A stretch of 29,420 nt of DNA, taken from the IMG/VR virus record IMGVR_UViG_3300045952_000078, positions 1 to 29,420 of that record; one strand, 5' to 3'. The notes beneath the pieces were generated by a model. The model saw nothing but the letters and a program-made list of their open reading frames with translations. It had not been told where the DNA came from and did no database searches. The position numbers and the translations under genes were made by a program. The DNA comes from a virus. Shown in pieces: positions 16,959-27,934 of the stretch; within the stretch, counting starts at the first letter, position 1, and each line of letters starts with the position of its first letter.

Positions 16959-18008
16959 TCAGCGCAGGGGCGTCACCTTCGAGACCCCTCTGCGGTAGTG
17001 CTTCTGCGCGGTCTTCACGGTGTCGCCCAGGAGCTCGGCGGCACGCTCGTCGCTCTCGGCGTCCGACCCGGACTTAGCCCGAATGTCGTGCTCGACGAAA
17101 CGCTCCCCGCCGTCCTTCATGTGCCGCTCCATCGTGCGATACCACTCGCTCTTGAAGGCCTTCTTGGTGAGCGCGCGCCCGGCATAAGCCTTCTCGGTTC
17201 TCCTCAGCATGAAGAGCGGCCGCGGCAGCGCAGCAACGCCCTCCGGGATTGCCGGACGCAGCGCCAGAATGGCGTTTATGACACGCCGCAATGACGGGCT
17301 CCACGCGACCAGGCGGTGCTTGCCGCGCTTGTTCTGGACGTAGTCGATCCCGCGCGCGGTCAGGTTCGCATCGGTCAGGCGCAGAAGGTTCCCCTGGCGC
17401 ATCGCCGTCAGGCGCTTCAGCATGATGTAGCAGCGCAGCCACCGCGGGCCGTGGCGCTCGAACTGGCGCAACTCCTCGGCCCTGACGTAGCGCACGCGCG
17501 GGCTCTCCCTGTTCCGGCGCACCCCATAGCATGGGTTAACCGTGACGTCGTAGCGGTCATCTCCCATGGCCCAACTGTAAGCCGAGGAAAGCAGCGCGAT
17601 CTCCCGGTTCGCTCGTATCGGCGCCGGCACCCCCTGCTTGTCGGTGCGCTTCCGGAGATAGCGGGCGGCGTGCTTGGAGTTGACGAGCCCGTATTGCATG
17701 CGCCCGAAGATAGCCTTCAGCATCTCGGCCTCGCCCAGGTTCGACTTGTGGGTTTCCATGCTGCGCCGGCCGGCGCGCACCTCGCCCTCGCAGTAGACGA
17801 GGAAGGAGTCGAGCATCTCGCCCACGGTTCCCTCGGCGGTAGCCTTCCCGGTGGAGAGCTCGACCCACTTCGCGCGGGCATCGCGGTCCCAGGTCTTGCC
17901 CAGCCGGGTCCACTCGTTGTTAGCCGGATTGCGCCAGAAATAAATGCCGCGATGCTCATACACGCCCTGCGGCAAATGGGCGTGCTCGGGCTTGCGCCTG
18001 CGTGCCAT
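16959..18008 (-). CDS. int: Tyrosine-family phage integrase (349 aa)
   Basis: The catalytic set is visible: Arg204 in RLTAMRQGNLLRL, Lys227 or Lys230 in the QNKRGKHR beta-hairpin, His307-x-x-Arg310 in EHDIRAKSG and the nucleophile Tyr338 in AQKHYRR. The usual second His/Trp position is Asp329 (LLGDT), a tolerated variation. Residues 1-60 carry a small basic and aromatic N-terminal part (GVYEHRGIYFWRNPANNEW) as in arm-binding domains of this group; about 61-165 is the core-binding domain. The ribosome site GGGAGG lies in the end of the DUF4224 gene, so the two are co-translated. The adjacent attP with arm sites fits a heterobivalent integrase. Confidence 0.96.
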   Translation of the reverse strand: MARRRKPEHAHLPQGVYEHRGIYFWRNPANNEWTRLGKTWDRDARAKWVELSTGKATAEGTVGEMLDSFLVYCEGEVRAGRRSMETHKSNLGEAEMLKAIFGRMQYGLVNSKHAARYLRKRTDKQGVPAPIRANREIALLSSAYSWAMGDDRYDVTVNPCYGVRRNRESPRVRYVRAEELRQFERHGPRWLRCYIMLKRLTAMRQGNLLRLTDANLTARGIDYVQNKRGKHRLVAWSPSLRRVINAILALRPAIPEGVAALPRPLFMLRRTEKAYAGRALTKKAFKSEWYRTMERHMKDGGERFVEHDIRAKSGSDAESDERAAELLGDTVKTAQKHYRRGVSKVTPLR

Positions 18009-18013
18009 GTTGT

Positions 18014-18256
18014 CTAATCCTCCCTGCCTTTGAGTCTATCGCGCCGGTCGAACATCGAAAAATCGGGCTCTGCGGCCTCGTCGTGGCTGGCGTCGTCCTG
18101 GCGCAGGTTCGGCACATCGTTCGCGGCGACCTTGACCTTTCCGCCCTTCCTGTAAATAAACCGGATGCCCAGCGCCTGCAGCCGCTTTGCCTGCGCCGGT
18201 GCCGTTCGGCGATCGGTCAGTTCGTAGACTTCCTCTGGAGTGAGGTAGAGCGCCAT
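18014..18256 (-). CDS. DUF4224 protein, probable excisionase-like partner of the integrase (80 aa)
   Basis: The N-terminus YLTPEEVYELTDRRTAPAQAKRLQALGIRFIYRKGGKVKVAANDV is a clear DUF4224 domain, which covers almost the whole protein. The family is short, predicted to hold a winged-helix-like DNA-binding fold, and is very often encoded directly before phage integrases. For that reason it is thought to act in excision or integrase control. The acidic C-terminus (DDASHDEAAEPDF) is variable. The gene ends 5 bases before the integrase start and begins 2 bases after the annealing protein stop. An excisionase role is inferred, not shown. Confidence 0.85.
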   Translation of the reverse strand: MALYLTPEEVYELTDRRTAPAQAKRLQALGIRFIYRKGGKVKVAANDVPNLRQDDASHDEAAEPDFSMFDRRDRLKGRED

Positions 18257-18258
18257 GC

Positions 18259-19179
18259 TCAGTCTGCCTGCTCTTCCTTGAGGGCCTTCAGCGTCTCCTC
18301 CAAGTCGGAATATTCGCTCGGCGTCAGATCCCCGAAATGTTCCTTGCCATACGCTTTCAGGCAATAGTCTTTGACCGTCGCACGGTCGAGCTTGTATTCC
18401 TTGACGAGTGCTTCCAGGCGCTTTTTCTGCGGCTCGGTGATGGTGCCCTGAGTCTGGGCCAGTTCGGCCGCGTCCATGCGCTTCAAAGCCGACCGGATAC
18501 CGGAGGGCAGGAGCGACCAAAGCGCCTTGAGCTCTTCGGGGTCGAAGCCAGAGGTGACGGCGAGGGCATATCCCTCGTCGGCCTTGTCCTCGGCAAACTT
18601 GCCTTTTATCTGCGCTGCCGTTGCCATGATGATCTCCTGCTTCGCGGCAGTTAGAGCGGCCAGCGCGCCGGTCGTCGGGCCGATCGGTGCCGAAGGCAGG
18701 CCCGTCTCGGCGCCGGGGATCGAGTCGACCTCGCTCTCGTCGAGCCAGCCCATCCCGCAGATCGAGAGCGTCACGCGGCGCTTGGCCTTGGTCTCGCATT
18801 TCATGAGAGCGTTGCTGCGCGCCTCGCCCTTCAGCCCGTCGATCGGCACGGCGCCGATCGCCTCGTCGTGCCGGCCGTCCTTGTCGGTCGCCGCCGCGGT
18901 CACCACGTAGCAGCCTTCTACGAGCTCGCGCGAGCGGATGCTGATCGACACCCCGTGTATCCGGCGCAGCTGGTCGGTGCAGTCGCGAAGCGCATAGAGG
19001 CGAAGCTTCCCGTTCAGCATGATGTATTCGAAGGGCTTTGTTAATGGGTTGAGACCCTGCGATTCGCACACCTTGCGGTAATACATGACGCGCTCTTCCG
19101 GCTTGAGCTTCGACAGGTCGCCCTGGATCAAGACCTGCTCGAGCACGGCGCCGCCGTCCTGTTTAGCGAGTGCTGACAT
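18259..19179 (-). CDS. Putative RecT-like single-strand annealing protein (306 aa)
   Basis: ATG 19179 is chosen because AAGGAG lies upstream; the longer open frame to 19278 lies under the preceding small gene. Residues near 30-60 read YYRKVCESQGLNPLTKPFEY, like the GLNP motif of RecT-family annealing proteins. LRLYALRDCTDQLRRIHGV and ALMKCETKAKRRVTLSICGMGWLDE follow. The C-terminal 55 residues (ITEPQKKRLEALVKEY onward) resemble the helical tail that many phage RecT/ERF-type proteins share. Such proteins pair complementary single strands in phage recombination. No exonuclease partner is adjacent. The family assignment is moderate; a purely uncharacterised phage family is the alternative. Confidence 0.65.
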   Translation of the reverse strand: MSALAKQDGGAVLEQVLIQGDLSKLKPEERVMYYRKVCESQGLNPLTKPFEYIMLNGKLRLYALRDCTDQLRRIHGVSISIRSRELVEGCYVVTAAATDKDGRHDEAIGAVPIDGLKGEARSNALMKCETKAKRRVTLSICGMGWLDESEVDSIPGAETGLPSAPIGPTTGALAALTAAKQEIIMATAAQIKGKFAEDKADEGYALAVTSGFDPEELKALWSLLPSGIRSALKRMDAAELAQTQGTITEPQKKRLEALVKEYKLDRATVKDYCLKAYGKEHFGDLTPSEYSDLEETLKALKEEQAD

Positions 19180-19339
19180 GATCGTTCTCCTTGTTCCAGT
19201 CGGGCGGGCATCCATGCGCTGCTGCGTAGCGGTCACGCTCGATGCGCTCCGCTTCGGCCAGGTCGAGCGCGCCGGCAATGCCGAATATCAGGAGGATCAG
19301 CGCGAGATGGAGCGCGGTGACGAGGCGCTCACGCATCAT
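19163..19339 (-). CDS. Small membrane-anchored protein (58 aa)
   Basis: This frame is nested between two larger genes: it overlaps the end of the 72-residue gene by 11 bases and the start of the annealing protein by 17. After MMRERL the segment VTALHLALILLIFGIAGALDL forms one transmembrane helix, followed by a charged, helical tail (AEAERIERDRYAAAHGCPPDWNKEN). The end of its coding sequence contains the ribosome site of the next gene, so translation is probably coupled. Similar one-helix proteins are common in early-left phage operons, with unknown function. Confidence 0.6.
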   Translation of the reverse strand: MMRERLVTALHLALILLIFGIAGALDLAEAERIERDRYAAAHGCPPDWNKENDHVSTR

Positions 19340-19547
19340 TACGCTTCATCCGCTCGGCCAGCATGGCGTCGGCGAACTTGAAGCACATCATCGACACCTT
19401 GTCGGTGCGCTCCACCATGCTCGCCCCGTCCTGCGGCCACGATGCGATATAGCCTTGCAGCGCGGCGGCGGCGAAGTAATCGCGCATCGACATGCCGCCC
19501 ATGAACAGGAGCACGTCTGGATTGTCGTGCTTGCTAGGGAGTGCCAT
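19329..19547 (-). CDS. Conserved phage hypothetical protein (72 aa)
   Basis: The segment GGMSMRDYFAAAALQGYIAS, then a helix ending FADAMLAERMKR, matches a widespread type of small phage and prophage protein with the MSLRDYFA...YxxADAMLxxR pattern. No function is established. It starts at the stop of the DUF3102-like gene (one shared base) and overlaps the small membrane protein downstream, so it belongs to the early-left operon. Confidence 0.8.
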   Translation of the reverse strand: MALPSKHDNPDVLLFMGGMSMRDYFAAAALQGYIASWPQDGASMVERTDKVSMMCFKFADAMLAERMKRNDA

Positions 19548-20470
19548 TATTCGAATACTCCGCCGAGCCGGTTCATCACCGCGAACGCCTCTGCGAAGCG
19601 TTCGCGCCGATCCTCCGGCGCCCGGTCGGGATGCAGGCAGTTCAGGATTAGGCGGAACTCGTCCCGCGTCATGAATCCCTTGAGACCCGCGAGAGCCTTG
19701 TCGTAGTTTCTTTCCTTGCGCTTGGCTTCCGCGATATCTGCGGTCATCTCTTCGATCAGGTGCGCCGTGTTGACCTTGACCTTCTCACGGACTGCCTCCT
19801 CCACGACGCCGTGGAATTCTTTCGCCAGCTTAGACGCTTCCGCGTCGATGGCGCGCTGCACGGCTTGCCTGCTCTTCGGGTCGAGCGTCGGCGGCTCGAC
19901 TTCCGGGGTGAACGTGCGCAGCCACGCATCACCGAATGCCTTGGCCTGCTCCGGGCTCGTCAGGCAACCCTTGTCGGGACCATCAGCGGCGATGCCGAAT
20001 GAGCGGAGCAGCTCCTCGACTTCGGCCTTGCGGTTGTTGCGAATGCCGCTGAACTGACGATCGGTTTTTGCGCCAAACCGGTCCCGAAGATAGGCGGACC
20101 AGCCCATGCGGCACGATTTCTGGGGCTTCGGCAGCAGGCCTAGTGCTCCGCGTATGCTGGTGGGGTTGTGCGCTTCCCACACCTCGCGGAACGATGCCAG
20201 GCGCATGTAGTTGCTGGCGCGATCTGCCACGACCTTCTGTTGCTTCCTCGAAAGACCGGACGCGTCCGGTCTTTGCCCGAACGCCTCTGCGCACCGGGCC
20301 AAGAATTCCCCGTGAGGCGTTTTCGGGTCGTGCTTCAACCCAATCAGCATGTCGCCGAGATCAGCGTAGGCGCCGACTGTTTGCTTTTCCATCTGTGTCG
20401 CGCGGTTATAAAGCTCGCGCACGTTGGCCCAGGTCGGGCGGTTCGGGTGGTCAAGAATTGTTGCGGTCAT
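19547..20470 (-). CDS. DUF3102-like protein with a C-terminal J-domain-like HPD motif (307 aa)
   Basis: The start ATG follows GGAGAGACGAAC. The N-terminal third (AYADLGDMLIGLKHDPKTPHGEFLARCAEAFG ... ASNYMRLASF) resembles DUF3102, a helical domain in phage and plasmid DNA-binding proteins. The middle is charged coiled coil (about 200-260, KLAKEFHGVVEEAVREKVKV). At 270-300, RDEFRLILNCLHPDRAPEDRRERFAEAFAVMN has the HPDR loop at 280-283 between two helices, as in J-domains that stimulate DnaK. It could recruit the host DnaK chaperone, as lambda replication does through DnaJ, but HPD-containing tails in phage proteins are not proven J-domains. Confidence 0.65.
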   Translation of the reverse strand: MTATILDHPNRPTWANVRELYNRATQMEKQTVGAYADLGDMLIGLKHDPKTPHGEFLARCAEAFGQRPDASGLSRKQQKVVADRASNYMRLASFREVWEAHNPTSIRGALGLLPKPQKSCRMGWSAYLRDRFGAKTDRQFSGIRNNRKAEVEELLRSFGIAADGPDKGCLTSPEQAKAFGDAWLRTFTPEVEPPTLDPKSRQAVQRAIDAEASKLAKEFHGVVEEAVREKVKVNTAHLIEEMTADIAEAKRKERNYDKALAGLKGFMTRDEFRLILNCLHPDRAPEDRRERFAEAFAVMNRLGGVFE

Positions 20471-20488
20471 GTTCGTCTCTCCGATGAG

Positions 20489-20517
20489 GCGGGCGCGCCG
20501 TCATCCGACGCGCCCGC
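20489..20517 (-). other. Strong intergenic hairpin between two leftward genes
   Basis: GCGGGCGCG (20489-20497) pairs perfectly with CGCGCCCGC (20509-20517) around an 11-base loop. No T-run follows on either strand, so it is not a classic terminator. It lies 19 bases before the start of the DUF3102-like gene and could protect or process the early-left mRNA. Confidence 0.5.
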
Positions 20518-20526
20518 TTACTGCTG

Positions 20527-20865
20527 TTACTCGTCTACCACTGCCGTCAGCAGCTTGCCGTTACGGCCGGTCTCAATCCCGCTGCGCTTCCAAACTTTTC
20601 TGACGCCTCGCGCCAGATCCATATTGGTCACACTCGGCGGGATGTACTGGCCGCGCTCTCTCAGCCTTTCGCGCACCACCTTGCCAGCGTCACAGCGGTC
20701 AGCCTGGTCGCTGCCGTTCTGTGTCTTCTGGCCGTTCAGGTAACGCGCGCAGGCTTCGAGCACCTCCTCATCGATAATCACCATCGCCACCAACTGAGTT
20801 ACCGTCAGTAGCGGTTTCGGTGCCGTCTCGATTCTAGTTTTCAACAACATTGCGACTTTATTCAT
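20527..20865 (-). CDS. Hypothetical early-left protein (112 aa)
   Basis: ATG 20865 is supported by CAAGGAGATTTGGCAA; the frame is open to 20901 without a better start. The sequence begins MNKVAMLLKTRIETAPKPLL and contains VAMVIIDEEVLEACARYLNG, then VVRERLRERGQYIPPSVTNMDLARGVRKVWKRSG. It is helical and moderately basic, with a possible winged-helix-like C-terminal half. No family was recognised. Position in the early-left operon suggests a DNA-related or host take-over role, without direct evidence. Confidence 0.75.
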   Translation of the reverse strand: MNKVAMLLKTRIETAPKPLLTVTQLVAMVIIDEEVLEACARYLNGQKTQNGSDQADRCDAGKVVRERLRERGQYIPPSVTNMDLARGVRKVWKRSGIETGRNGKLLTAVVDE

Positions 20866-20980
20866 TTGCCAAATCTCCTTGAATGAAGAAGCCCCAAGCA
20901 TTTGGTTGGAGGTTCATCAGGGAACCGCACTTGCCGGTGCGGCGCGGGACACGATGGACCGTCGTGAGCGCGGTTGCCAC
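20858..20980 (-). CDS. Possible very small protein (40 aa)
   Basis: A GTG at 20980 opens a frame that ends in TAA 20858-20860, inside the first codons of the next gene (ATGAATAA). The product MATALTTVHRVPRRTGKCGS and on has no recognised motif and no clear ribosome site. It fills an otherwise empty 145-base gap. It may equally be an untranslated leader. Confidence 0.25.
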   Translation of the reverse strand: MATALTTVHRVPRRTGKCGSLMNLQPNAWGFFIQGDLANE

Positions 20981-21010
20981 GGATGCCGCCGTGGTTCGGT
21001 TGGAACTTCC

Positions 21011-21202
21011 TTACTCGCGCCACTCCTTCGGCGTTGACATCATGAGCTCGCGCTCGAGCTCGCGCGCGAACGCGGACCAGTGGAGCATGAGCACGCGGAT
21101 GTCCTCGGCGAGTCGGCGCGCGTCCTCTCTAGGCAGGCTCGCCGGCAGGTGGATCGGCGGGACCAGGGTCGCGAAATTGTCGGTGCGCGGGGTGTCGCTC
21201 AT
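21011..21202 (-). CDS. Small early-left protein starting MSDTPRTD (63 aa)
   Basis: ATG 21202 is preceded by GAGGAGGCAGACGACG and gives MSDTPRTDNFATLV, the recurrent beginning of a class of small phage proteins found in many temperate siphophages. The rest is one long helix (REDARRLAEDIRVLMLHWSAFARELERELM), suggesting a coiled coil or dimer. The longer open frame to 21262 lacks support. The function is unknown. Confidence 0.75.
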   Translation of the reverse strand: MSDTPRTDNFATLVPPIHLPASLPREDARRLAEDIRVLMLHWSAFARELERELMMSTPKEWRE

Positions 21203-21263
21203 CGTCGTCTGCCTCCTCTGCTGGTGGCGCAGCTTCATCGCCAGGCCGCGGTTGCGGTGCATA

Positions 21264-21497
21264 TCAGCGTGTCGCCGTCGCCAGCACCAGCATGAGACCC
21301 AGCGTTTCCGCCCTTGCGCGGCTCATGCGCAGGCGCAGCCTGCGGCTACCCCTGCGCAGCACGATGTCGAGCGAGCCCGGCGCACGCGGCACGCGGGTGA
21401 CGCCCACGACGTTGTAGGCGTTGTCGAGCTCGCCCTGCGTGATGCGGGCAGGCGAGGCTTCGGTATTGCGGGGACTGCGGACTGCGGTTGTTGGCAT
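21264..21497 (-). CDS. First gene of the early-left operon, hypothetical (77 aa)
   Basis: ATG 21497 has a strong ribosome site (AAAGGAGGGCGTC) and lies directly behind the left promoter. The protein has a polar N-terminus (MPTTAVRSPRNTEASPARI), a segment QGELDNAYNVVGVTRVPRAPGSLDIVLRRGSRRLRLRMSR with alternating strands, and a hydrophobic C-terminal helix (AETLGLMLVLATATR). It is strongly basic. Being the first lytic-phase product, it takes the place where lambda encodes N, but no arginine-rich antitermination motif of the boxB-binding kind is evident. No family was recognised. Confidence 0.7.
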   Translation of the reverse strand: MPTTAVRSPRNTEASPARITQGELDNAYNVVGVTRVPRAPGSLDIVLRRGSRRLRLRMSRARAETLGLMLVLATATR

Positions 21498-21500
21498 GAC

Positions 21501-21520
21501 GCCCTCCTTTGATGGAGGGC
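21501..21520 (-). promoter_or_regulatory. Hairpin covering the ribosome site of the first early-left gene
   Basis: GCCCTCC (21501-21507) and GGAGGGC (21514-21520) are perfectly complementary around a 6-base loop. On the minus strand the downstream arm contains GGAGGGC, the ribosome site, 3 bases before the ATG. The expected start of PL transcripts (about 21514) would leave out the upstream arm, whereas longer read-through transcripts would form the hairpin. Confidence 0.6.
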
Positions 21521-21550
21521 ATTATGCGCAAAACTTTGCGTATTGGTCAA
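21521..21550 (-). promoter_or_regulatory. Early-left promoter (PL)
   Basis: On the minus strand -35 is TTGACC (21545-21550) and -10 is CATAAT (21521-21526), with an 18-base spacer. Each hexamer matches the sigma-70 consensus in 5 of 6 positions. Operator OL1 lies entirely within the spacer and OL2 abuts the -35, so bound repressor would block polymerase. Confidence 0.85.
21527..21540. promoter_or_regulatory. Operator OL1
   Basis: CGCAAA-AC-TTTGCG is a perfect inverted repeat with 6-base arms. It shares its core with the sites at 21550, 22388 and 22412. Confidence 0.85.
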
Positions 21551-21563
21551 GCAAAACTTTGCG
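21550..21563. promoter_or_regulatory. Operator OL2
   Basis: AGCAAA-AC-TTTGCG has perfect 5-base arms. Its centre is exactly 23 bases from that of OL1, about two helical turns, which would allow cooperative binding on one DNA face. Confidence 0.82.
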
Positions 21564-21664
21564 CATCACTGAAGGGACCAGCTCTCGGCAGGGTCGTCTG
21601 GTCGCGCCGGGCGGGCCGGAACCCTAGGCAGGCTGTATTCCGCCTATGGCCAAAGCCCGACCCT

Positions 21665-21895
21665 CTACTGGGGGACGAGTTTGCAGCCGCAATGCTTGCA
21701 CACGCTGGCGTCCTTCAGGACCAATTCCCGGCAGTCCGGGCATTTTACGTGTGTCCAAGCATTCGGCTTCTTATCGCGCGGACGGTTCATACGCACCGCT
21801 GAATAGATCAGGTGCGCCGGGATGGTAATGACGAGCATCACCGCCCCGAAAAGCAGGGCAATGACGTGAAGCAGGATGAATATCACGTGGCCCAT
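21665..21895 (-). CDS. Membrane-anchored zinc-ribbon protein in the repressor operon (76 aa)
   Basis: Residues about 4-34 are hydrophobic (FILLHVIALLFGAVMLVITI), enough for one long or a hairpin membrane segment. A basic linker (RMNRPRDKKPNAW) follows. Then comes a zinc ribbon, Cys52-x2-Cys55 and Cys66-x2-Cys69 (KCPDCREL ... VCKHCGCK). It starts 10 bases after the repressor stop on the same strand, so it should be made in lysogens. In lambda this place, between cI and OL, holds the rex exclusion genes. A role in superinfection exclusion or lysogenic conversion is therefore plausible but rests on position and membrane topology. Confidence 0.75.
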   Translation of the reverse strand: MGHVIFILLHVIALLFGAVMLVITIPAHLIYSAVRMNRPRDKKPNAWTHVKCPDCRELVLKDASVCKHCGCKLVPQ

Positions 21896-21904
21896 CGAAT
21901 GGGC

Positions 21905-22387
21905 TCACCGCCGAGGCGGTAACCCGAGAATGCGCTCGATGTTCTTGTCGGTCGGAACCTTTAACTTCTTAGCACTTCGCGCTCCTTCTCGCTGATCCTC
22001 ATTGGTGTTCTTCCCCATAGCCGTCTGTCCGCCCTCATCAGGTGGTCGGGTGTACTCAGTCTGAATCTTGGTGTCCATTTCCATTGCACGCAAAGCCCGC
22101 CGGAGCTCGGGGTGTAGCAGCATCCATGTTTCGCACTTGGGTAACTTCGCGGCCAATGCTTCGAGCTTATCGACAGTCGGGTAGCCCTGGCCTTTCTTGA
22201 TTGTCTTCGTGCGCCGCTCTGGATGGCGAAGGTTGCGCACTGTATTGGGTGACACTTTCGCCGCCTTGCCTAAGGCGTTGGCATTGGGATACTCGCAGTC
22301 AATCCGGTTCATGAAGTAACCCAAATTTTCCGCAATTATTTCTAATACGCCGCGCTTTTTCACCGAGAAAACGTTACTCGGTTGCAT
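21905..22387 (-). CDS. HTH repressor (CI-like), without peptidase domain (160 aa)
   Basis: The start is uncertain. ATG 22387 leaves the operators outside the gene and is preferred; ATG 22438 and GTG 22363 are alternatives, and an apparent extension to 22561 runs through the operators and the cro-like gene. Residues about 14-60 form a helix-turn-helix domain: LEIIAENLGYFMNRI, then NALGKAAKVSPNTVRNLRHPE with the recognition helix SPNTVRNL. A charged, low-complexity C-terminal part follows (GGQTAMGKNTNEDQREGARSAKK). There is no LexA/S24 Ser-Lys self-cleavage domain. The gene lies divergent from the cro-like gene across OR, as cI does. No strong ribosome site is seen. Confidence 0.8.
   Translation of the reverse strand: MQPSNVFSVKKRGVLEIIAENLGYFMNRIDCEYPNANALGKAAKVSPNTVRNLRHPERRTKTIKKGQGYPTVDKLEALAAKLPKCETWMLLHPELRRALRAMEMDTKIQTEYTRPPDEGGQTAMGKNTNEDQREGARSAKKLKVPTDKNIERILGLPPRR
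22362..22382. promoter_or_regulatory. Possible degenerate third right operator
   Basis: ACCGAG and CTCGGT are perfect 6-base arms around AAAACGTTA, with the operator-like AAAAC-TT core. The centre lies about 24 bases upstream of the next operator, close to the 23-base spacing of the others. It overlaps the first codons of the repressor. The match is weaker than for the other sites. Confidence 0.4.
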
Positions 22388-22410
22388 CGGCAAAAGTTTG
22401 CCGCTAAGAT
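22382..22410 (+). promoter_or_regulatory. Early-right promoter (PR)
   Basis: TTGCAT (22382-22387), a 17-base spacer and TAAGAT (22405-22410) make a moderate sigma-70 promoter with the expected transcript start near 22417. One operator fills the spacer and another covers the start region, exactly as expected for a repressed early promoter. The cro-like ATG follows at 22439. Confidence 0.7.
22388..22403. promoter_or_regulatory. Operator in the PR spacer
   Basis: CGGCAAA-AG-TTTGCCG is a perfect inverted repeat with 7-base arms, the most symmetrical of the set. It shares CAAAA..TTTG with the left operators. Confidence 0.85.
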
Positions 22411-22411
22411 G

Positions 22412-22425
22412 CTCAAAACTTTGCG
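22412..22425. promoter_or_regulatory. Operator over the PR start region
   Basis: CTCAAA-AC-TTTGCG has one perfect half-site identical to OL1 and one diverged half. Its centre is 23 bases from the operator in the spacer, the same distance as between OL1 and OL2. Confidence 0.75.
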
Positions 22426-22438
22426 CTTCGAGTAGCAT

Positions 22439-22648
22439 ATGGCTGACTTGTTGGTCGAAATCACGAGAGATCTGAAACGCCGCACTCCGAGCGAGCGGAA
22501 GTCGATCGCGGAGGCGGCTGGTGTGTCGGCCTCGATGGTCGAGCAGATCGGCCGCGGGCATTACAAATCCTGCCCCACCTACAAGAACATCACGGCCATT
22601 GCCAAGGCGATCAGGCGCAGCAAGCAGACAGGAGAGGCTGCTGCGTGA
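22439..22648 (+). CDS. Cro-like HTH regulator (69 aa)
   Basis: This is a small basic protein, first in the rightward operon and divergent from the repressor. Helices at about 18-40 (PSERKSIAEAAGVSASMVEQIGRG) form a helix-turn-helix, with SASMVEQI as the likely recognition helix; a second helical part is KNITAIAKAIRRSK. Size, single-domain structure and position after OR match Cro proteins of lambdoid phages, which compete with the repressor for the same operators. No strong ribosome site precedes the ATG. It ends in a GTGA overlap with the next gene. Confidence 0.85.
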   Translation: MADLLVEITRDLKRRTPSERKSIAEAAGVSASMVEQIGRGHYKSCPTYKNITAIAKAIRRSKQTGEAAA

Positions 22649-22872
22649 GCGAGCCGCTCAAGTCCATACACGTTCGCCTGTCGCCAGAGGCGCACAAGGT
22701 GCTCTCCGTCATCGCCGATATCGAGGACAAGGACAACGCCGAAATGGCGCGGCTCCTCCTCGAAGAATCCCTGCTTGGTCGAGTGCATACGGTCAGCATA
22801 GCCGCGCGCCGTTATCGCAGCGCGGGATTCAGCGGGATTCTCGGGGATCTTGAGGGAGGCAAGGGGAAATGA
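22645..22872 (+). CDS. Ribbon-helix-helix-like small regulator (75 aa)
   Basis: GTG 22645 overlaps the Cro-like stop and has GGAGAGG upstream. The N-terminal strand KSIHVRLS, the helix PEAHKVLSVIADIED and the second helix DNAEMARLLLEESLLG follow the Arc/CopG ribbon-helix-helix plan, whose dimers place the strand in the DNA major groove. The position directly after cro is that of lambda cII, so a role in the lysis-lysogeny choice is conceivable. The C-terminus (RRYRSAGFSGILGDLEGGKGK) is flexible. The function is inferred from the fold pattern and context. Confidence 0.7.
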   Translation: MSEPLKSIHVRLSPEAHKVLSVIADIEDKDNAEMARLLLEESLLGRVHTVSIAARRYRSAGFSGILGDLEGGKGK

Positions 22873-23092
22873 AACTCGCCTCTACTCTTTCGCCCCGGCC
22901 TATCCCGTGAACCGCGCGCCCAACAATCAGAAAGCCGCCGCCCGCTTTTTCGTGCGCATCGCGCAGCGCGGGCGCACGCAGGACAGGTTGCGCGATGACT
23001 ATTCGCTCCCGCTATTTCCGCTCGTTCTGATCCTCGAGGCGGACGGCACGCTTGCCGATGATGCGCGGCATTTGATCCCGGGGCCGGCATGA
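22850..23092 (+). CDS. Hypothetical early-right protein (61-80 aa)
   Basis: The start is uncertain. TTG 22850 gives 80 residues and overlaps the preceding gene. GTG 22907 gives 61 residues and shares bases with the stop of a 13-codon frame that begins at ATG 22869 behind a strong GGAGGCAAGGGGAA site, suggesting reinitiation. The common part (NRAPNNQKAAARFFVRIAQRGRTQDRLRDDYSLPLFPLVLILEADGTL) has a basic helix and a hydrophobic C-terminal segment. No family was recognised. It ends in an ATGA overlap with the nuclease gene. Confidence 0.6.
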   Translation: MREARGNETRLYSFAPAYPVNRAPNNQKAAARFFVRIAQRGRTQDRLRDDYSLPLFPLVLILEADGTLADDARHLIPGPA

Positions 23093-23484
23093 GCCTCGCA
23101 ACCCGCCAGGCGTGGCAGGCGCGGCTCTTCGGCGGCGAGGCCTCGCCCGGCCCGCGGCGCACCAACCGGCACCCGGAGCAGGGGGTGCTCAACGCCGTGC
23201 TCAAGGCACTGCGCCTGCATCCGGCGGTGTCCTGGGTCGTCAGGATGAACACGGGCTCCTGCAAGATGCCCGACGGCAGATACGTGCGCTTCGGCTTCCC
23301 CGGCTGCCCGGACATCCTCGGGCAGATGCGGGACGGGCGCCTGCTGGCGATCGAGTGCAAGTCCGCCCGTGGGCGCCTGACGGACGAGCAGGAATTCGTG
23401 CTCGCCAAGATCCGGGCCAACAACGGCGTCTCGGGCGTCGCGCGCTCGATCGCGGATGCGATCAAGATCGTGGAGGGCAGGTGA
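23089..23484 (+). CDS. VRR-NUC domain nuclease (131 aa)
   Basis: The PD-(D/E)xK nuclease signature is complete: Glu30 (HPEQ), Asp75 (PGCPDILG), Glu89-x-Lys91 (AIECKS) and Gln101 in the following helix (LTDEQEFVL). The pattern FGFPGCPDILGQMRDGRLLAIECKSARGRLTDEQ is typical of stand-alone phage VRR-NUC proteins, which act on branched DNA such as Holliday junctions or flaps. It probably resolves replication or recombination intermediates before packaging. It is directly before the replication gene, with only GTGA-type spacing, and begins at ATG 23089 overlapping the previous stop. Confidence 0.92.
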   Translation: MSLATRQAWQARLFGGEASPGPRRTNRHPEQGVLNAVLKALRLHPAVSWVVRMNTGSCKMPDGRYVRFGFPGCPDILGQMRDGRLLAIECKSARGRLTDEQEFVLAKIRANNGVSGVARSIADAIKIVEGR

Positions 23485-24177
23485 GTGCCAGATCGCCTGA
23501 TACGCGACGAGCTACTGGAGTCCGAGCGGTGGCTGCGCCTGAAGGACAACGCCGACCGGCTCGCATTCATTGCGCTCCTCCTCAAGGCCGACTCCTACGG
23601 GAATTTCAGCGCCGATTCGTTCCGCCTGATGCGCCTGTGGCGCGACTTCGGGATCAACAACGAACCGCATGCCTGCAAGACGCTGACGGAGCTGGCCGAC
23701 GCCGACCTGGTGCGCCTCTACGAGGTCGACGGGAAGGCTTATCTACACATTCCGCGATTCGGGCAGCGAGCGCGCTATTTCAAGCGAGTTTTCCCGATTT
23801 CGCCGTGGACAATCGAGCATAAACAAGAGGTTGCAAATAATTCACCTGTCTACAGTCAGGTGCGCACAGCAGAAGAGAAGAGAAGTGAAGTGAAGAGAAG
23901 TGAAGTGAAGAGAAGTGAAGAGAAGAAAAGAAGGGCGAAAAAGCCTGGCGCTAGCGCGCCTGTTTTTGTCCCACCGTCTTGGATACCTACCGAACAATGG
24001 AACGCATGGATTGAAATGAGGAAAGCAAGCAAGAAGCCCCCGACTTTGTTTGCCCTCCAGCTAGCAGTCGCCAAGCTTGAAGAGCTCAAAGCGCAGGGGC
24101 ACGCGCCCAGTGCCGTGCTCGCGCAGTCGGCTTTCAAGTGCTGGACCGACCTGTGGCCGTTAAAGGACAACGCATGA
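23485..24177 (+). CDS. O-like phage replication protein (230 aa)
   Basis: GTG 23485 begins directly after the nuclease stop. Residues 1-110 (SERWLRLKDNADRLAFIALLLKADSYGNF, RLWRDFGINNEPHACKTLTELADADLVRLYEVDGKAYLHIPRF) form the winged-helix N-terminal domain found in phage replication proteins of this kind. A charged linker made of three KRSEV-type repeats (about 133-150) follows. The C-terminal domain includes WIPTEQWNAWIEMRKASKKPPTLFALQLAVAKLEELKAQG and SAFKCWTDLWPLKDN. It is expected to bind the phage origin and recruit the host helicase. No P-like loader is adjacent. The linker is encoded by tandem repeats that could be the origin. Confidence 0.8.
   Translation: MPDRLIRDELLESERWLRLKDNADRLAFIALLLKADSYGNFSADSFRLMRLWRDFGINNEPHACKTLTELADADLVRLYEVDGKAYLHIPRFGQRARYFKRVFPISPWTIEHKQEVANNSPVYSQVRTAEEKRSEVKRSEVKRSEEKKRRAKKPGASAPVFVPPSWIPTEQWNAWIEMRKASKKPPTLFALQLAVAKLEELKAQGHAPSAVLAQSAFKCWTDLWPLKDNA
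23843..23862. repeat. Inverted repeat beside the replication-gene repeat array
   Basis: CACCTG and CAGGTG are 6-base arms around an 8-base centre that includes part of CTGT-CT-ACAG. It lies 18 bases before the tandem repeats, in a locally AT-richer stretch (GCAAATAATTCACC). Confidence 0.55.
23881..23925 (+). repeat. Three tandem 15-base repeats inside the replication gene
   Basis: AGAAGTGAAGTGAAG occurs at 23881-23895 and 23896-23910, and AGAAGTGAAGAGAAG at 23911-23925. Further purine-only sequence lies on both sides (about 23871-23935). Lambda-type phages carry iterons of their initiator in the middle of the O gene, so this is the leading candidate for the replication origin. A simple slippage-made linker is the alternative. 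Confidence 0.7.
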
Positions 24178-24467
24178 ACTGTCCGCGCTGTCACGCCACG
24201 CTCGAGCACGCGACCTACTGCACCGACTGCGGCTGGACGCGGCCGACGAAACCCGCCGAGGCACCGCAACTGCCGGGCATCCAACGCTGTGCCTACGTAG
24301 CGACGGAAAGCGGGGAGCAGTGCCACTACCCCGGCACGAACTGGAACAACCTACGAGGCGACGGACCTGGCTACTGCCGGGAGCACATACGTTCCGACAT
24401 ATCGTTTTCCCGAGCTACAGCGGTCGTAGTCGAGTCCCGTCGCTATCAACGAGAGCGTGATCCATGA
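24174..24467 (+). CDS. Zinc-ribbon protein (97 aa)
   Basis: It starts in an ATGA overlap behind AAAGGACAACGC. Two zinc motifs are visible: an N-terminal ribbon Cys3-x2-Cys6 ... Cys18-x2-Cys21 (CPRCHATLEHATYCTDCGW), then a second Cys/His set (QRCAYV, EQCHYPG, GYCREHI). Small proteins with such ribbons are common in the nin-like region of lambdoid phages, with mostly unknown roles. It belongs to a run of coupled small genes between the replication and terminase genes. Confidence 0.75.
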   Translation: MNCPRCHATLEHATYCTDCGWTRPTKPAEAPQLPGIQRCAYVATESGEQCHYPGTNWNNLRGDGPGYCREHIRSDISFSRATAVVVESRRYQRERDP

Positions 24468-24568
24468 GCAGGCTCGACGACGACGACAACACGGCATGGA
24501 TCTACCTCCTGCTGCTCGCGGTCGTGGTGCTCGTTCTCGCGTTCGTCCTGGCGTGGGTGCTCGCGTGA
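24464..24568 (+). CDS. Single-helix membrane peptide (34 aa)
   Basis: ATG 24464 (ATGA overlap) to TGA 24566-24568. After an acidic start (MSRLDDDDN) almost the whole rest is a transmembrane helix (WIYLLLLAVVVLVLAFVLAW). An acidic N-terminus outside and no positive tail would favour an N-out orientation, as in some pinholin-like or toxin-like peptides. Being in an early operon, a regulatory or host-directed membrane role is as likely as lysis. The next gene starts inside its last codon. Confidence 0.6.
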   Translation: MSRLDDDDNTAWIYLLLLAVVVLVLAFVLAWVLA

Positions 24569-24714
24569 TCCACGTGAAACGTTGGCTCGGCATCCGCCAT
24601 CTGCGCTACCTGTGGCACTCGTGGTGCTTCTACCGCTGGTGGCGTTACGCCAAGTGCCAGAGCACCGACGCCGACTTGAAATACCTGGACGACGTGTGGG
24701 AAGGACGCGCATGA
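24565..24714 (+). CDS. Small aromatic conserved phage protein (49 aa)
   Basis: GTG 24565 overlaps the preceding TGA, and the stop overlaps the HNH start (ATGA). The first half is unusually rich in Trp, Tyr, Arg and His (RWLGIRHLRYLWHSWCFYRW). The second half (TDADLKYLDDVWEGRA) matches the DLxYLDxIWxGxA ending of a small phage protein type seen in many siphophages. No function is known. A peripheral membrane or nucleic acid contact is possible from composition. Confidence 0.65.
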   Translation: MIHVKRWLGIRHLRYLWHSWCFYRWWRYAKCQSTDADLKYLDDVWEGRA

Positions 24715-25001
24715 CCGATCCCTTCTACCACTCCAACGCCTGGCGCGAGCTGCGCTACCTGTGCTTGAAGCGCGACCACTGGCACTGCACCGTGTGCGAC
24801 CGCAGCGTGCGGCTTAAAGGCAGTGCGCGAATCGATCACATCATCAACCGGCGCGAGCGTCCCGACCTGGCGCTCATGCTCTCCAACCTGCGCACCCTCT
24901 GCGCTTCCTGCGATAACAAGCGCCATGCCGAGAAGGGTGGACGTCACATCGAGCGACCCGAGCTCGCGCTCGACGGACTGCCGAAGTCATGGCGAACATG
25001 A
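24711..25001 (+). CDS. HNH endonuclease (96 aa)
   Basis: The HNH motif is complete: two zinc Cys pairs (CTVC and CASC), the catalytic His of RIDHIINR, Asn of LSNLRTLC and the final DNKRH. The N-terminal FYHSNAWRELRYLCLKRD is the usual lead-in of small phage HNH proteins. In HK97-type phages an HNH protein encoded near the terminase is needed for efficient DNA cutting at packaging. The position one gene before the terS-side gap fits that role. It starts in an ATGA overlap and overlaps the next HNH gene. Confidence 0.92.
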   Translation: MTDPFYHSNAWRELRYLCLKRDHWHCTVCDRSVRLKGSARIDHIINRRERPDLALMLSNLRTLCASCDNKRHAEKGGRHIERPELALDGLPKSWRT

Positions 25002-25795
25002 ATCTGTTCGGCAACGAGATCGCGCCGCGCCAGTGCGAATGGTGCAAGGCGCCGCTGCCAGCATGGGTGAACCGTCACTCGCTCAAACGATGCTGTTCGA
25101 TCGCGTGCGAGCGTGCGCTGCGGCGGGCGCGTGCTGGCGAGAATAGGCTGCAGCACTGCCCGACGTGCGGCGTCGCATTCTGTCGCTTGAAGTCGCAACA
25201 GGGCATCATCTACTGCACGCCCGAATGTCGCCCGGCACCAACGCCCAAGGTGCCCCCACCCCCGCCTGTCAGGAACCAACGTTCGTGCCGAACTTGCGAC
25301 GCCTTGCTGCCGCTCAGAGCGCCGTCGGCTAGGAGATATTGCGAGCCGTGTGCAATTGCAGCGCACAATGCAGTGCTAGATCGCGCACGCGCGCGTAGAC
25401 AGAAAGTGAAAGGCAGCGCCAAGAAGGCACGTCAGCGCGCGCGACTGGCTGGCGTCTTCTATGAACCGGGTATAAACGTGCGCAAACTGATGGCGTTAGC
25501 GTGGCGTAACGGCGTCCGCATCCGATGCTACTTGTGCGGGAAACGAATGACTGAGCGGCTGCTCAAGCTACCGCCAAACCATGACCGATATCCAACGCAC
25601 GAGCATATCGTTCCGATCAAAAAAGGTGGCGCACACAGTTTGGCGAATACATCGATCGCGCATCGCCTATGCAATAGCATGAAGAGCGACCGTATGCCCA
25701 GGCAAGGCGACCTCTTGGCTGCCAGTCTCACAACTGTGAGCGATGCACAGGCTAAGCCCACAGCACCCGCTGCGCGACAGGGGGAACTGCTGTGA
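24998..25795 (+). CDS. HNH endonuclease with three N-terminal zinc-knuckle units (265 aa)
   Basis: ATG 24998 continues the ATGA overlap style; ATG 24989 is in frame and would add three residues. Three Cys-pair units precede the nuclease: CEWCKAPL with CCSIAC, CPTCGVAF with YCTPEC, and CRTCDALL with YCEPC. A basic stretch (RARARRQKVKGSAKKARQRAR) follows. The HNH domain is at about 175-235: CYLCGKRM, THEHIVPIKKGG, SLANTSIAHRLCNSMKSDR. It could be a homing-type endonuclease or a packaging nuclease. Its partner directly upstream is also HNH, which is uncommon. The last gene before a 76-base gap. Confidence 0.88.
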   Translation: MNLFGNEIAPRQCEWCKAPLPAWVNRHSLKRCCSIACERALRRARAGENRLQHCPTCGVAFCRLKSQQGIIYCTPECRPAPTPKVPPPPPVRNQRSCRTCDALLPLRAPSARRYCEPCAIAAHNAVLDRARARRQKVKGSAKKARQRARLAGVFYEPGINVRKLMALAWRNGVRIRCYLCGKRMTERLLKLPPNHDRYPTHEHIVPIKKGGAHSLANTSIAHRLCNSMKSDRMPRQGDLLAASLTTVSDAQAKPTAPAARQGELL

Positions 25796-25871
25796 GTTTG
25801 GCGGGGGGGGAAAGTAAAAAACGTCGCCCGACGGCGACACCGGCGCGCGAAGCCTTGTTTTTTAAACAATT
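25796..25871 (+). other. Short intergenic region before terS with hairpin and palindrome
   Basis: It contains a run of 8 G (25803-25810), a perfect 6-bp stem GTCGCC-CGAC-GGCGAC (25823-25838) and the palindrome TTGTTT-TTT-AAACAA (25855-25869) just before terS. No convincing promoter hexamers were found. As the only gap in the early-late boundary, it may hold the late control point or part of a packaging site. Confidence 0.5.
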
Positions 25872-26327
25872 ATGAAAACCAGCCGCGGCAAGGGGACCAA
25901 TTCCGCCAGCTTCCTGATCGCACTGGCAGCGGAAAATCCGGTAGAGATTCCGAAAAACGTCGAATTGACGGCCGAGGAGGCGCAGTTATGGCCGCAATTC
26001 GCATCCGCGCGCGCGCGGGTGGATTGGCGTGAGTTCGACCTGATTCTGCTGGCGAAGATCGTCAAACTGGAGGCGGTCAACCGCAAAGACCAGAGGAAGC
26101 TCGACGAAACGAGCACGATCGTTGAGACCAGGAAAGGCACGCCGATCGTGAACCCGCTGATCGCCGTCATTGATTCGCGCACACGCTTGCAGCTCGCGAT
26201 CATCCGCACGCTCTCGCTCACTGCCGGCAAGGCGCCGGCCACGGTTCGCGGTCACGCGCTGCAGGCGCGCACGTTCAATCAGATGAAAAGCGACGATCCT
26301 GAGGATCTCTTCGCGACACCGCAATGA
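25872..26327 (+). CDS. terS: Terminase small subunit, P27 family (151 aa)
   Basis: This subunit recognises phage DNA and hands it to the large subunit. The pattern matches P27-type small terminases: the N-terminal MKTSRGKGTNSASF, then ELTAEEAQLWPQFASARARVDWREFDLILLAKIVKLEAVNRK, the central VETRKGTPIVNPLIAVIDSRTRLQLAIIRTLSL, and a short acidic tail. The VETRKGTPxxNP segment is diagnostic for the family. It lies directly before terL, with ATGA overlap, as usual. The start ATG has no strong ribosome site. Confidence 0.9.
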   Translation: MKTSRGKGTNSASFLIALAAENPVEIPKNVELTAEEAQLWPQFASARARVDWREFDLILLAKIVKLEAVNRKDQRKLDETSTIVETRKGTPIVNPLIAVIDSRTRLQLAIIRTLSLTAGKAPATVRGHALQARTFNQMKSDDPEDLFATPQ

Positions 26328-27934
26328 GCCGTGCGCTGCCGGCGTCTTTGCGCGCCGCGATCAAGAGCGGGCACGTCCCGCGCTTTCGCGACTGGCGCGC
26401 CCTGCCGACGCCGCAATTGACGCAGGGCGAGCGGGTGTGCCGCTTCATCGAGACGCAGATCCCGGTGCCCGAGGGGCCGCTCGTCGGTCGCGCGATGGCG
26501 CTCCTGCCGTTCCAGGAAGCGTTCATCCTGGCGCTCTTCGACGGCGAGGAGCGCGCTCGGAAGGCCATCCTGTCGGTCGGGCGCAAGAGCGGGAAGACCG
26601 CGCTCGTCGCGGCGCTGCTTCTCGCTTTCATGTTCATGAACGCGCTCACCTCGAGGAACTCGCGCATCAATTCCGCGGCGCTCTCGCGCGAGCAGGCGGC
26701 GCTCGTCTACGAATACATGGCGAAGTCGATCGGGCTCTCGCCGAGGCTCTCCACGTTCTCGAAAGTGACCGCGAGCGGGAAGCGCATCGTGGCGTTGAAT
26801 ACCGGCATCGAGTATCACGCGCTCGCCGCCGAGGCCGGCAAGGCGATGGGGCTCTCGCCCGCGGTCGTCGTGGGCGACGAGTGGGGCCAGGTCGTCGGCC
26901 CCTCGCACCCGTTCATCGATGCGATCCTGACCTCTCAAGGCGCGCACGATGCGCCGCTCGCGATCGTGATCTCGACGCAGGCGCCCTCCGATGCGGACTG
27001 GCTCTCGCTGCAGATCGATGACGCGACGCGCAACCCGCAGGCCGACGTCGTGTGCCATCTCTACACCGCCGACACGGCGCTCCCGCTGACGAGCCCGAAG
27101 GCGTGGGCGCAGGCCTGCCCCGCCATCGGGGAGTTCCGCTCGCGCAAGGACGTCGAGCTCCTGGCGCAGCAGGCCGTGCGCCTGCCCGAGGCCGAGGCGA
27201 GCTTCCGGAAACTGATCCTCAACCAGCGCGTGGCGCTGGAGCGGCGCTGGCTCGCGCCCTCGATCTGGAAGGCGTGCAACGCGACGCCCGACCCGGCGAT
27301 CTTCCGCGACGGGCGCACCGTCGGCGCCGGGCTCGACCTCTCGCAGAAGCACGACCTGACCGCGTGCGTGCTGGCGGCCCAGGACGACGGGGGCACGGTT
27401 CACCTGTGGCCGTTCGTTTTCACGCCCGAGCGGTCGCTGCACGAGCGGGAGCTCAGAGACCGTGCGCCCTACAGCGCCTGGGTGCAGAGCGGGCAGTTGA
27501 TCGCGGTGCCGGGGGCGACGCTCGACTACGACTGGCTCTTCCAGTTCCTGCGCATGCGCCTGGACGACCTCGAGATCCGCATCGACGTCTGCGCCTACGA
27601 CCGCTGGCGCATCACCGAGGCGCGGAGCGCCGCCGACCGCAACAACTTCGTCGTGAACGCCTGGAGCGAGGTCGGCCAGGGCATGCAGTCGATGAGCCCG
27701 CGCCTCGAATTCTTCGAGACGCTGCTCCTGCAGGAGCGCCTGCGCCACGGCGGGCATCCGCTGCTGAACATGGGCGCCGCCAATGCCGTCGTGGTGCAGG
27801 ACCCGGCGGGCAACCGCAAGCTCGACAAGGCGCAGTCGACGCAGAGGATCGACCCGCTGGTCGCCGCGGTCATGGCGGCGGGCGTTTTCATGGTGAGCGC
27901 GCCAGCGTTCGACGTTGCGGCGTTTATCGCCTGA
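26324..27934 (+). CDS. terL: Terminase large subunit (536 aa)
   Basis: This is the packaging motor ATPase and nuclease. Walker A is GRKSGKT at residues 86-92. Walker B is VVVGDEWG at 181-188, with Asp185 and catalytic Glu186; the coupling motif is VISTQAPSD at about 215-223. The nuclease domain shows Asp338 (GLDLSQKHD), Asp426 (CAYDRWR) and Asp510 (QRIDPLVAAVMA), the three acidic residues of the RNase H-like fold. The length is typical of the Terminase_1 group used by HK97-like and P27 phages. It ends 62 bases before the next possible gene. Confidence 0.96.
   Translation: MSRALPASLRAAIKSGHVPRFRDWRALPTPQLTQGERVCRFIETQIPVPEGPLVGRAMALLPFQEAFILALFDGEERARKAILSVGRKSGKTALVAALLLAFMFMNALTSRNSRINSAALSREQAALVYEYMAKSIGLSPRLSTFSKVTASGKRIVALNTGIEYHALAAEAGKAMGLSPAVVVGDEWGQVVGPSHPFIDAILTSQGAHDAPLAIVISTQAPSDADWLSLQIDDATRNPQADVVCHLYTADTALPLTSPKAWAQACPAIGEFRSRKDVELLAQQAVRLPEAEASFRKLILNQRVALERRWLAPSIWKACNATPDPAIFRDGRTVGAGLDLSQKHDLTACVLAAQDDGGTVHLWPFVFTPERSLHERELRDRAPYSAWVQSGQLIAVPGATLDYDWLFQFLRMRLDDLEIRIDVCAYDRWRITEARSAADRNNFVVNAWSEVGQGMQSMSPRLEFFETLLLQERLRHGGHPLLNMGAANAVVVQDPAGNRKLDKAQSTQRIDPLVAAVMAAGVFMVSAPAFDVAAFIA

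Follow-up and report, generated by a model that had tools for sequence, protein, structure and literature searches.

Between the -10 hexamer of the left lytic promoter (PL) of a temperate phage and the start codon of its first lytic gene lies an inverted repeat. We propose that it acts in cis as a translational lock on read-through RNA, and hold this reading with a probability of roughly 0.77. The promoter, its operators, the hairpin and its position, the gene order and the covariation of the two hairpin arms among phages were established by computation on the analysed stretch, which corresponds to IMG/VR record IMGVR_UViG_3300045952_000078, positions 1-29,420 (the window, 29,420 nucleotides), and on its relatives. 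In the proposed mechanism, the stretch from the -10 hexamer to the transcription start of PL would pair with the Shine-Dalgarno (SD) sequence of the first lytic gene and, in the extended stem of the window, also with its start codon. A polymerase arriving from upstream would copy both arms, and the hairpin would then hide the ribosome-binding site; the likeliest source of such RNA would be the repressor operon, read towards PL in the lysogen. RNA started at PL would begin where the 5' arm ends, without the arm itself, and would be translated freely. The lytic operon would be guarded at initiation by the repressor on OL1 and OL2 and at translation by the lock, and in some relatives an intrinsic terminator just upstream of PL may act as an added guard. 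Both the read-through in lysogens and the reduced translation of the resulting RNA are what we infer from this arrangement.

Lytic genes stay silent in a prophage despite repressor transcription aimed at them, and the usual answer to how this is achieved is the repressor together with terminators. That about 15 unrelated leaders have a covarying RNA lock of this kind suggests that the cost of leaky read-through is high enough for translation to be guarded as well. It also gives a simple predictive rule, a discriminator complementary to the SD or start codon, for which other phages and mobile elements can be screened.

PL, its operators and the hairpin in the window

PL is the best sigma-70-like site within 20400-23000, with 10 of 12 hexamer matches. 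The sequence-only reading had described a near-consensus promoter with OL1 in its spacer and OL2 23 bases away, and this description holds, with TTGACC and CATAAT separated by 18 bp and exact cores at both operators. The 23-bp operator spacing of OL is found again at OR, between two copies with one mismatch each. The features of the region are the following:

22439-22648, plus strand: cro-like HTH ORF, 69 aa
22413-22424: OR operator TCAAAACTTTGC, one mismatch to the core
22390-22401: OR operator GCAAAAGTTTGC, one mismatch to the core
21905-22363, minus strand: repressor gene, co-directional with PL, start probably GTG 22363 or ATG 22387
21665-21895, minus strand: 76-aa ORF between the repressor and PL, with an N-terminal hydrophobic segment and a zinc-ribbon-like C-terminal end
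21551-21562: OL2 operator core GCAAAACTTTGC, exact core match
21550-21545, minus strand: PL -35 hexamer TTGACC, abutting OL2
21528-21539: OL1 operator core GCAAAACTTTGC, exact, within the PL spacer
21526-21521, minus strand: PL -10 hexamer CATAAT, after an 18-bp spacer
21514-21520, minus strand: 5' arm of the putative lock, GCCCTCC, which is the discriminator (about -6 to +1); the stem continues into the -10 hexamer, to 21522
21513-21514, minus strand: predicted PL start, from promoter spacing
21508-21513, minus strand: hairpin loop ATCAAA
21501-21507, minus strand: 3' arm of the putative lock, GGAGGGC, including the Shine-Dalgarno GGAGG; the stem continues to 21499
21264-21497, minus strand: first lytic ORF, 77 aa, start codon 21497-21495
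21011-21262, minus strand: second ORF of the PL operon, 83 aa, beginning two bases beyond the final base of the first

The hairpin GCCCTCC-ATCAAA-GGAGGGC (21501-21520) has a perfect stem of 7 bp (-13.9 kcal/mol) over the ribosome site of the first lytic gene, as had been claimed from the letters, and the pairing is actually longer: it can be extended to 9 bp (-16.2 kcal/mol) and, in a fold of 9+4 bp (-21.4 kcal/mol), the AUGC that holds the start codon pairs with GCAU of the -10 region. The SD and the start codon of the first lytic ORF are both paired in the predicted fold of RNA started upstream. RNA from 21530, which includes the 5' arm, outfolds 200 of 200 shuffles (z -3.1), and RNA begun at 21513 has no unusual fold (z +0.8). 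The further claim that PL transcripts start inside the hairpin, and so without the 5' arm, fits the promoter spacing, with the start assumed to lie 6-8 nt after the -10 hexamer. In paired comparisons, SD and AUG together are predicted to be less accessible in RNA that reads through than in RNA begun at PL (p=0.0001, Wilcoxon test); for the window SD alone the predicted contrast is modest (0.60 to 0.37 unpaired).

An intrinsic terminator at 21501-21520 was considered and rejected, the stem being followed by GTCATG, without a U-tract. The minus strand of the window showed no intrinsic terminator in the interval from the repressor operon to PL, which makes read-through plausible. The window gave no Rfam match at the gathering score and two sub-threshold matches only. 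In minus-strand read-through RNA, OL1 and OL2 (21528-21562) would pair as a 16-bp stem adjoining the lock, which is probably a by-product of operator symmetry.

The repressor of the window had no direct Pfam or PHROG match, but an HMM built from its relatives assigns it and the protein annotated as repressor in Bordetella phage vB_BaM-IFTN4 to one family (E 7e-13). For the first lytic ORF no family match was found; its G+C by codon position is 0.67/0.60/0.82. A small gene encoding a membrane or lipoprotein-like product often sits between repressor and PL (21665-21895 in the window, and in L067, L085 and L093); it is a candidate lysogenic-conversion or exclusion gene that would be transcribed with the repressor. 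The PR of the window (22390-22438) has poor -35 and -10 hexamers compared with its relatives, with the operators kept.

Relatives of the cassette and their promoter types

Protein searches, made with the first ORF and with the repressor, had a near-copy contig, IMGVR_UViG_3300045944_000167, as their sole match and gave nothing in phages or genome contigs; the near-copy is 100% identical over 17267-26387 and provides no independent evidence. Searching viral contigs directly for the hairpin pattern returned 41 stretches, the sister contig among them; very long contigs accounted for most of these. Pattern scans for the operator pair were a far better handle than protein homology, giving 66 places, with the window counted and its copies left out. 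In the genome collection, the sole match to the strict cassette was L050, on the Gallionella MAG contig JANLID010000045.1, which has PL on one side of the repressor and PR on the other; scanning 399 genomes from a single order for the pattern returned only this known match. Repressor searches in phages and plasmids added, as close relatives, Bordetella avium phages only. The IMG/VR matches L056-L064, two sets of near-identical contigs, were set aside since they apparently fit the half-relaxed operator pattern by chance.

The cassette has two promoter types, PR, which fires cro with almost no leader, and PL, which lies downstream of a co-directional repressor gene. PL promoters divide in turn into those with a short leader and an SD (18 loci) and those with a long leader, a sorting made by eye from gene order, context and leader length and not from pairing, with some hairpins already noticed beforehand. 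The repressor gene is upstream and co-directional in 15 of the 18 short-leader PLs, whose leaders are at most 66% identical to one another.

In most of the 32 PR promoters (L069-, L070-, L078+, L079+, L083-, L087-, L099-, L105+ and others) an ATG lies 6-7 nt past the -10 hexamer. The predicted +1 is an A in 20 of the 32, nearly always that of the cro ATG, and, as judged from these sequences, cro-type genes appear to be transcribed leaderless from PR. The pyrimidine-rich discriminator is absent at PR (50% pyrimidine, versus 81% at PL of the same cassette). In the long PL leaders of L070, L078, L079, L081, L087, L088 and L102, which have 24-bp operator spacing, an exact boxA-like GCTCTTTAACAA is located 27-132 nt after the operator, and the long leaders of L107 and L080 have a boxA-like element with two mismatches; no boxA-like GCTCTTTAACAA was found within 600 nt in the 18 short-leader PLs. 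These long boxA leaders are probably of the antitermination type, a second design of the same promoter.

Covariation of the arms and alternative explanations

The discriminator zone of each short-leader PL (p+38 to p+49, where p is the first base of the distal operator) was paired with its own SD/start zone and with the zones of the other phages, so that permuted partners preserve the pyrimidine richness of the discriminators and the purine richness of the SDs. In the 18 short-leader PLs, pairing with the own partner averages -10.6 kcal/mol versus -8.06 kcal/mol for permuted partners (z -4.8, with 0 of 100,000 permutations as good), and the mean stem is 6.7 bp versus 5.4 bp. In an 8-nt sliding scan that began 30 bp before the operator and ended 57 bp past its first base, the signal appears only at p+39 to p+49, between the -10 hexamer and +1 (z -4.2 and -6.15 at two central windows), and no other offset is comparable. 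Scanning the target instead gives the strongest windows at 15 to 3 bases before the start codon, with the peak over the SD, and a secondary, weaker signal around codons 5-7 (z -3.3).

Stems of 6 or more contiguous pairs are formed in 13 of the 18 short-leader PLs, versus a permuted mean of 6.7 and maximum of 11. In 12 of these 13 the end of the 5' arm falls at about -1 to +2 relative to the predicted start, and the 3' arm covers the SD and/or the start codon; the exception is L093, whose 6-bp stem is mainly over its -10 and upstream of its SD and does not fit. Because the arm ends there in nearly every strong case, PL RNA would be unable to contain it, and upstream RNA would have to. Stems of 5 bp only are found in L045, L047, L050, L065 and L067. 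Most stems cover the SD; the start codon is covered in L069 and L089 and by the 5-bp stem of L045. In the window, L050, L071, L085 and L094, the 5' arm takes in the end of the -10 hexamer. The loops are 6-27 nt long, with sequences differing among phages. A held-out set consisted of loci first found through PR only and then searched for PL, several of them with 24-bp operator spacing. Three of its four short-leader PLs fit the rule, L104 with TCCCTCC/GGAGGGA, L082 with TTCTCCC/GGGGGAA and L083 with CTCCC/GGGAG; L098 does not, as its hairpin would be mostly within the native transcript. The combined test gives z -6.06 (n=22), and z -5.4 without the window.

Since the leaders are at most 66% identical, they do not carry a single inherited hairpin, and recurrence of the same arrangement with different sequences in relatives indicates that the hairpin of the window is not a chance one. 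The probability of a compositional origin, in which discriminators that are pyrimidine-rich for promoter reasons and purine-rich SDs give functionless hairpins, is very small. Discriminators of PL are indeed 81% pyrimidine, those of long-leader PLs without a nearby SD are pyrimidine-rich as well, and permuted partners already average 5.4 bp; however, the permutation that keeps composition still yields z -4.8 to -6.1, and the stems TCTCTCCGT/ACGGAGAGA, GTGCTCCC/GGGAGCAC and TCCATCTC/GAGATGGA exceed generic SD complementarity. An inverted repeat acting only as DNA, either the site of a second regulator or a quasi-palindrome perfected by template-switch mutation, is also improbable. Template switching can perfect imperfect inverted repeats and could yield covariation without selection, but it leaves unexplained the exact placement of one arm at the start site and of the other at the SD; in addition, sequences and loop lengths (6-27 nt) vary among phages, unlike a protein site, and the 3' arm tracks the SD or start codon while the 5' arm tracks the start site. 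Action of the hairpin in the native PL transcript, as a 5' stem-loop for stability, a thermometer or an attenuator, would place the start further upstream. The start is assigned by promoter spacing alone, and the hairpin of L098 would lie inside native RNA; against this, RNA from PL would have no room for the full 5' arm in the several phages where the arm overlaps the end of the -10, and the missing U-tract speaks against a terminator, so that this explanation is given little credence.

A variant keeps the same lock and has it silence mainly RNA other than the repressor transcript, namely host or other phage transcripts entering the prophage, or RNA from an upstream promoter that is active early in infection. 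Locks of the IS10 type are directed at transcription from outside, and a terminator between the repressor genes and PL in some relatives should already stop most repressor RNA. Intrinsic terminators lie directly upstream of PL in L048, L053, L069, L085 and L089, which suggests that read-through is selected against; the same terminators suggest that read-through from the repressor genes matters, and the nearest co-directional upstream genes are the repressor and one small gene. This variant is considered rather unlikely. Repressor bound at OL could itself block read-through, which would make the lock redundant. The lock against read-through from the repressor operon, as initially proposed from the window sequence, is supported by sequence and comparative evidence, including arm covariation, the specificity of the interval, the upstream co-directional repressor and predicted accessibility. 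It is also fairly likely that, throughout a whole group of temperate phages, the untranscribed discriminator of the lytic promoter serves as an anti-Shine-Dalgarno or anti-start-codon, joining a promoter element and a read-through-specific lock in one sequence, and that long-leader relatives, often with a boxA leader, dispense with the lock.

Comparison with known systems

In phage T4, genes e, soc, 49 and I-TevI have a hairpin over the ribosome-binding site in early or middle read-through RNA, and the late promoter starts downstream of the 5' strand (PMC3014915). For gene e, the late promoters are located at the 5' strand and their RNA lacks it, with expression from the long RNA being ~100-fold lower (PMC3014915). 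The likeness consists in the SD and/or AUG being held in a helix of longer transcripts and, going by the predicted fold and promoter spacing, the window element would work like the gene e lock in both structure and promoter position. In contrast, T4 is lytic and its lock separates early from late expression, while the phage described here is temperate, with the lock at a repressor-controlled early promoter, where it apparently separates lysogenic from lytic transcription and is known as covarying arms across unrelated leaders.

The transposase mRNAs of IS10 and IS50 are protected from outside transcription since their promoter starts within an inverted repeat and only outside transcripts fold over the start. 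PL shares with them a start placed inside an inverted repeat, which in the insertion sequences consists of transposon end sequences and here is the discriminator of a phage operon promoter. In the open-access papers that were searched, no such lock was found at a repressor-controlled lytic promoter of a prophage; most subscription papers were outside this search, and an earlier description is possible.

The layout resembles that of lambda: two promoters point outward, each with a pair of operators, and the repressor gene that separates them is read towards PL; in the window it comprises the operators, repressor homology and a cro-like HTH protein, with poor PR hexamers. In lambda, a nut leader separates N from a distant start, and the gene read leaderless is cI from PRM, whereas here it is predicted to be cro from PR. 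Among the close relatives are the Bordetella avium phages vB_BaM-IFTN4/5/8, which share the operator cassette at both promoters, PL and PR, and have a homologue annotated as repressor; the published paper on them does not mention operators or promoters. They differ in that their operators are spaced 24 bp apart and their PL leader is long and contains a boxA, in contrast to the short, putatively locked leader of the window.
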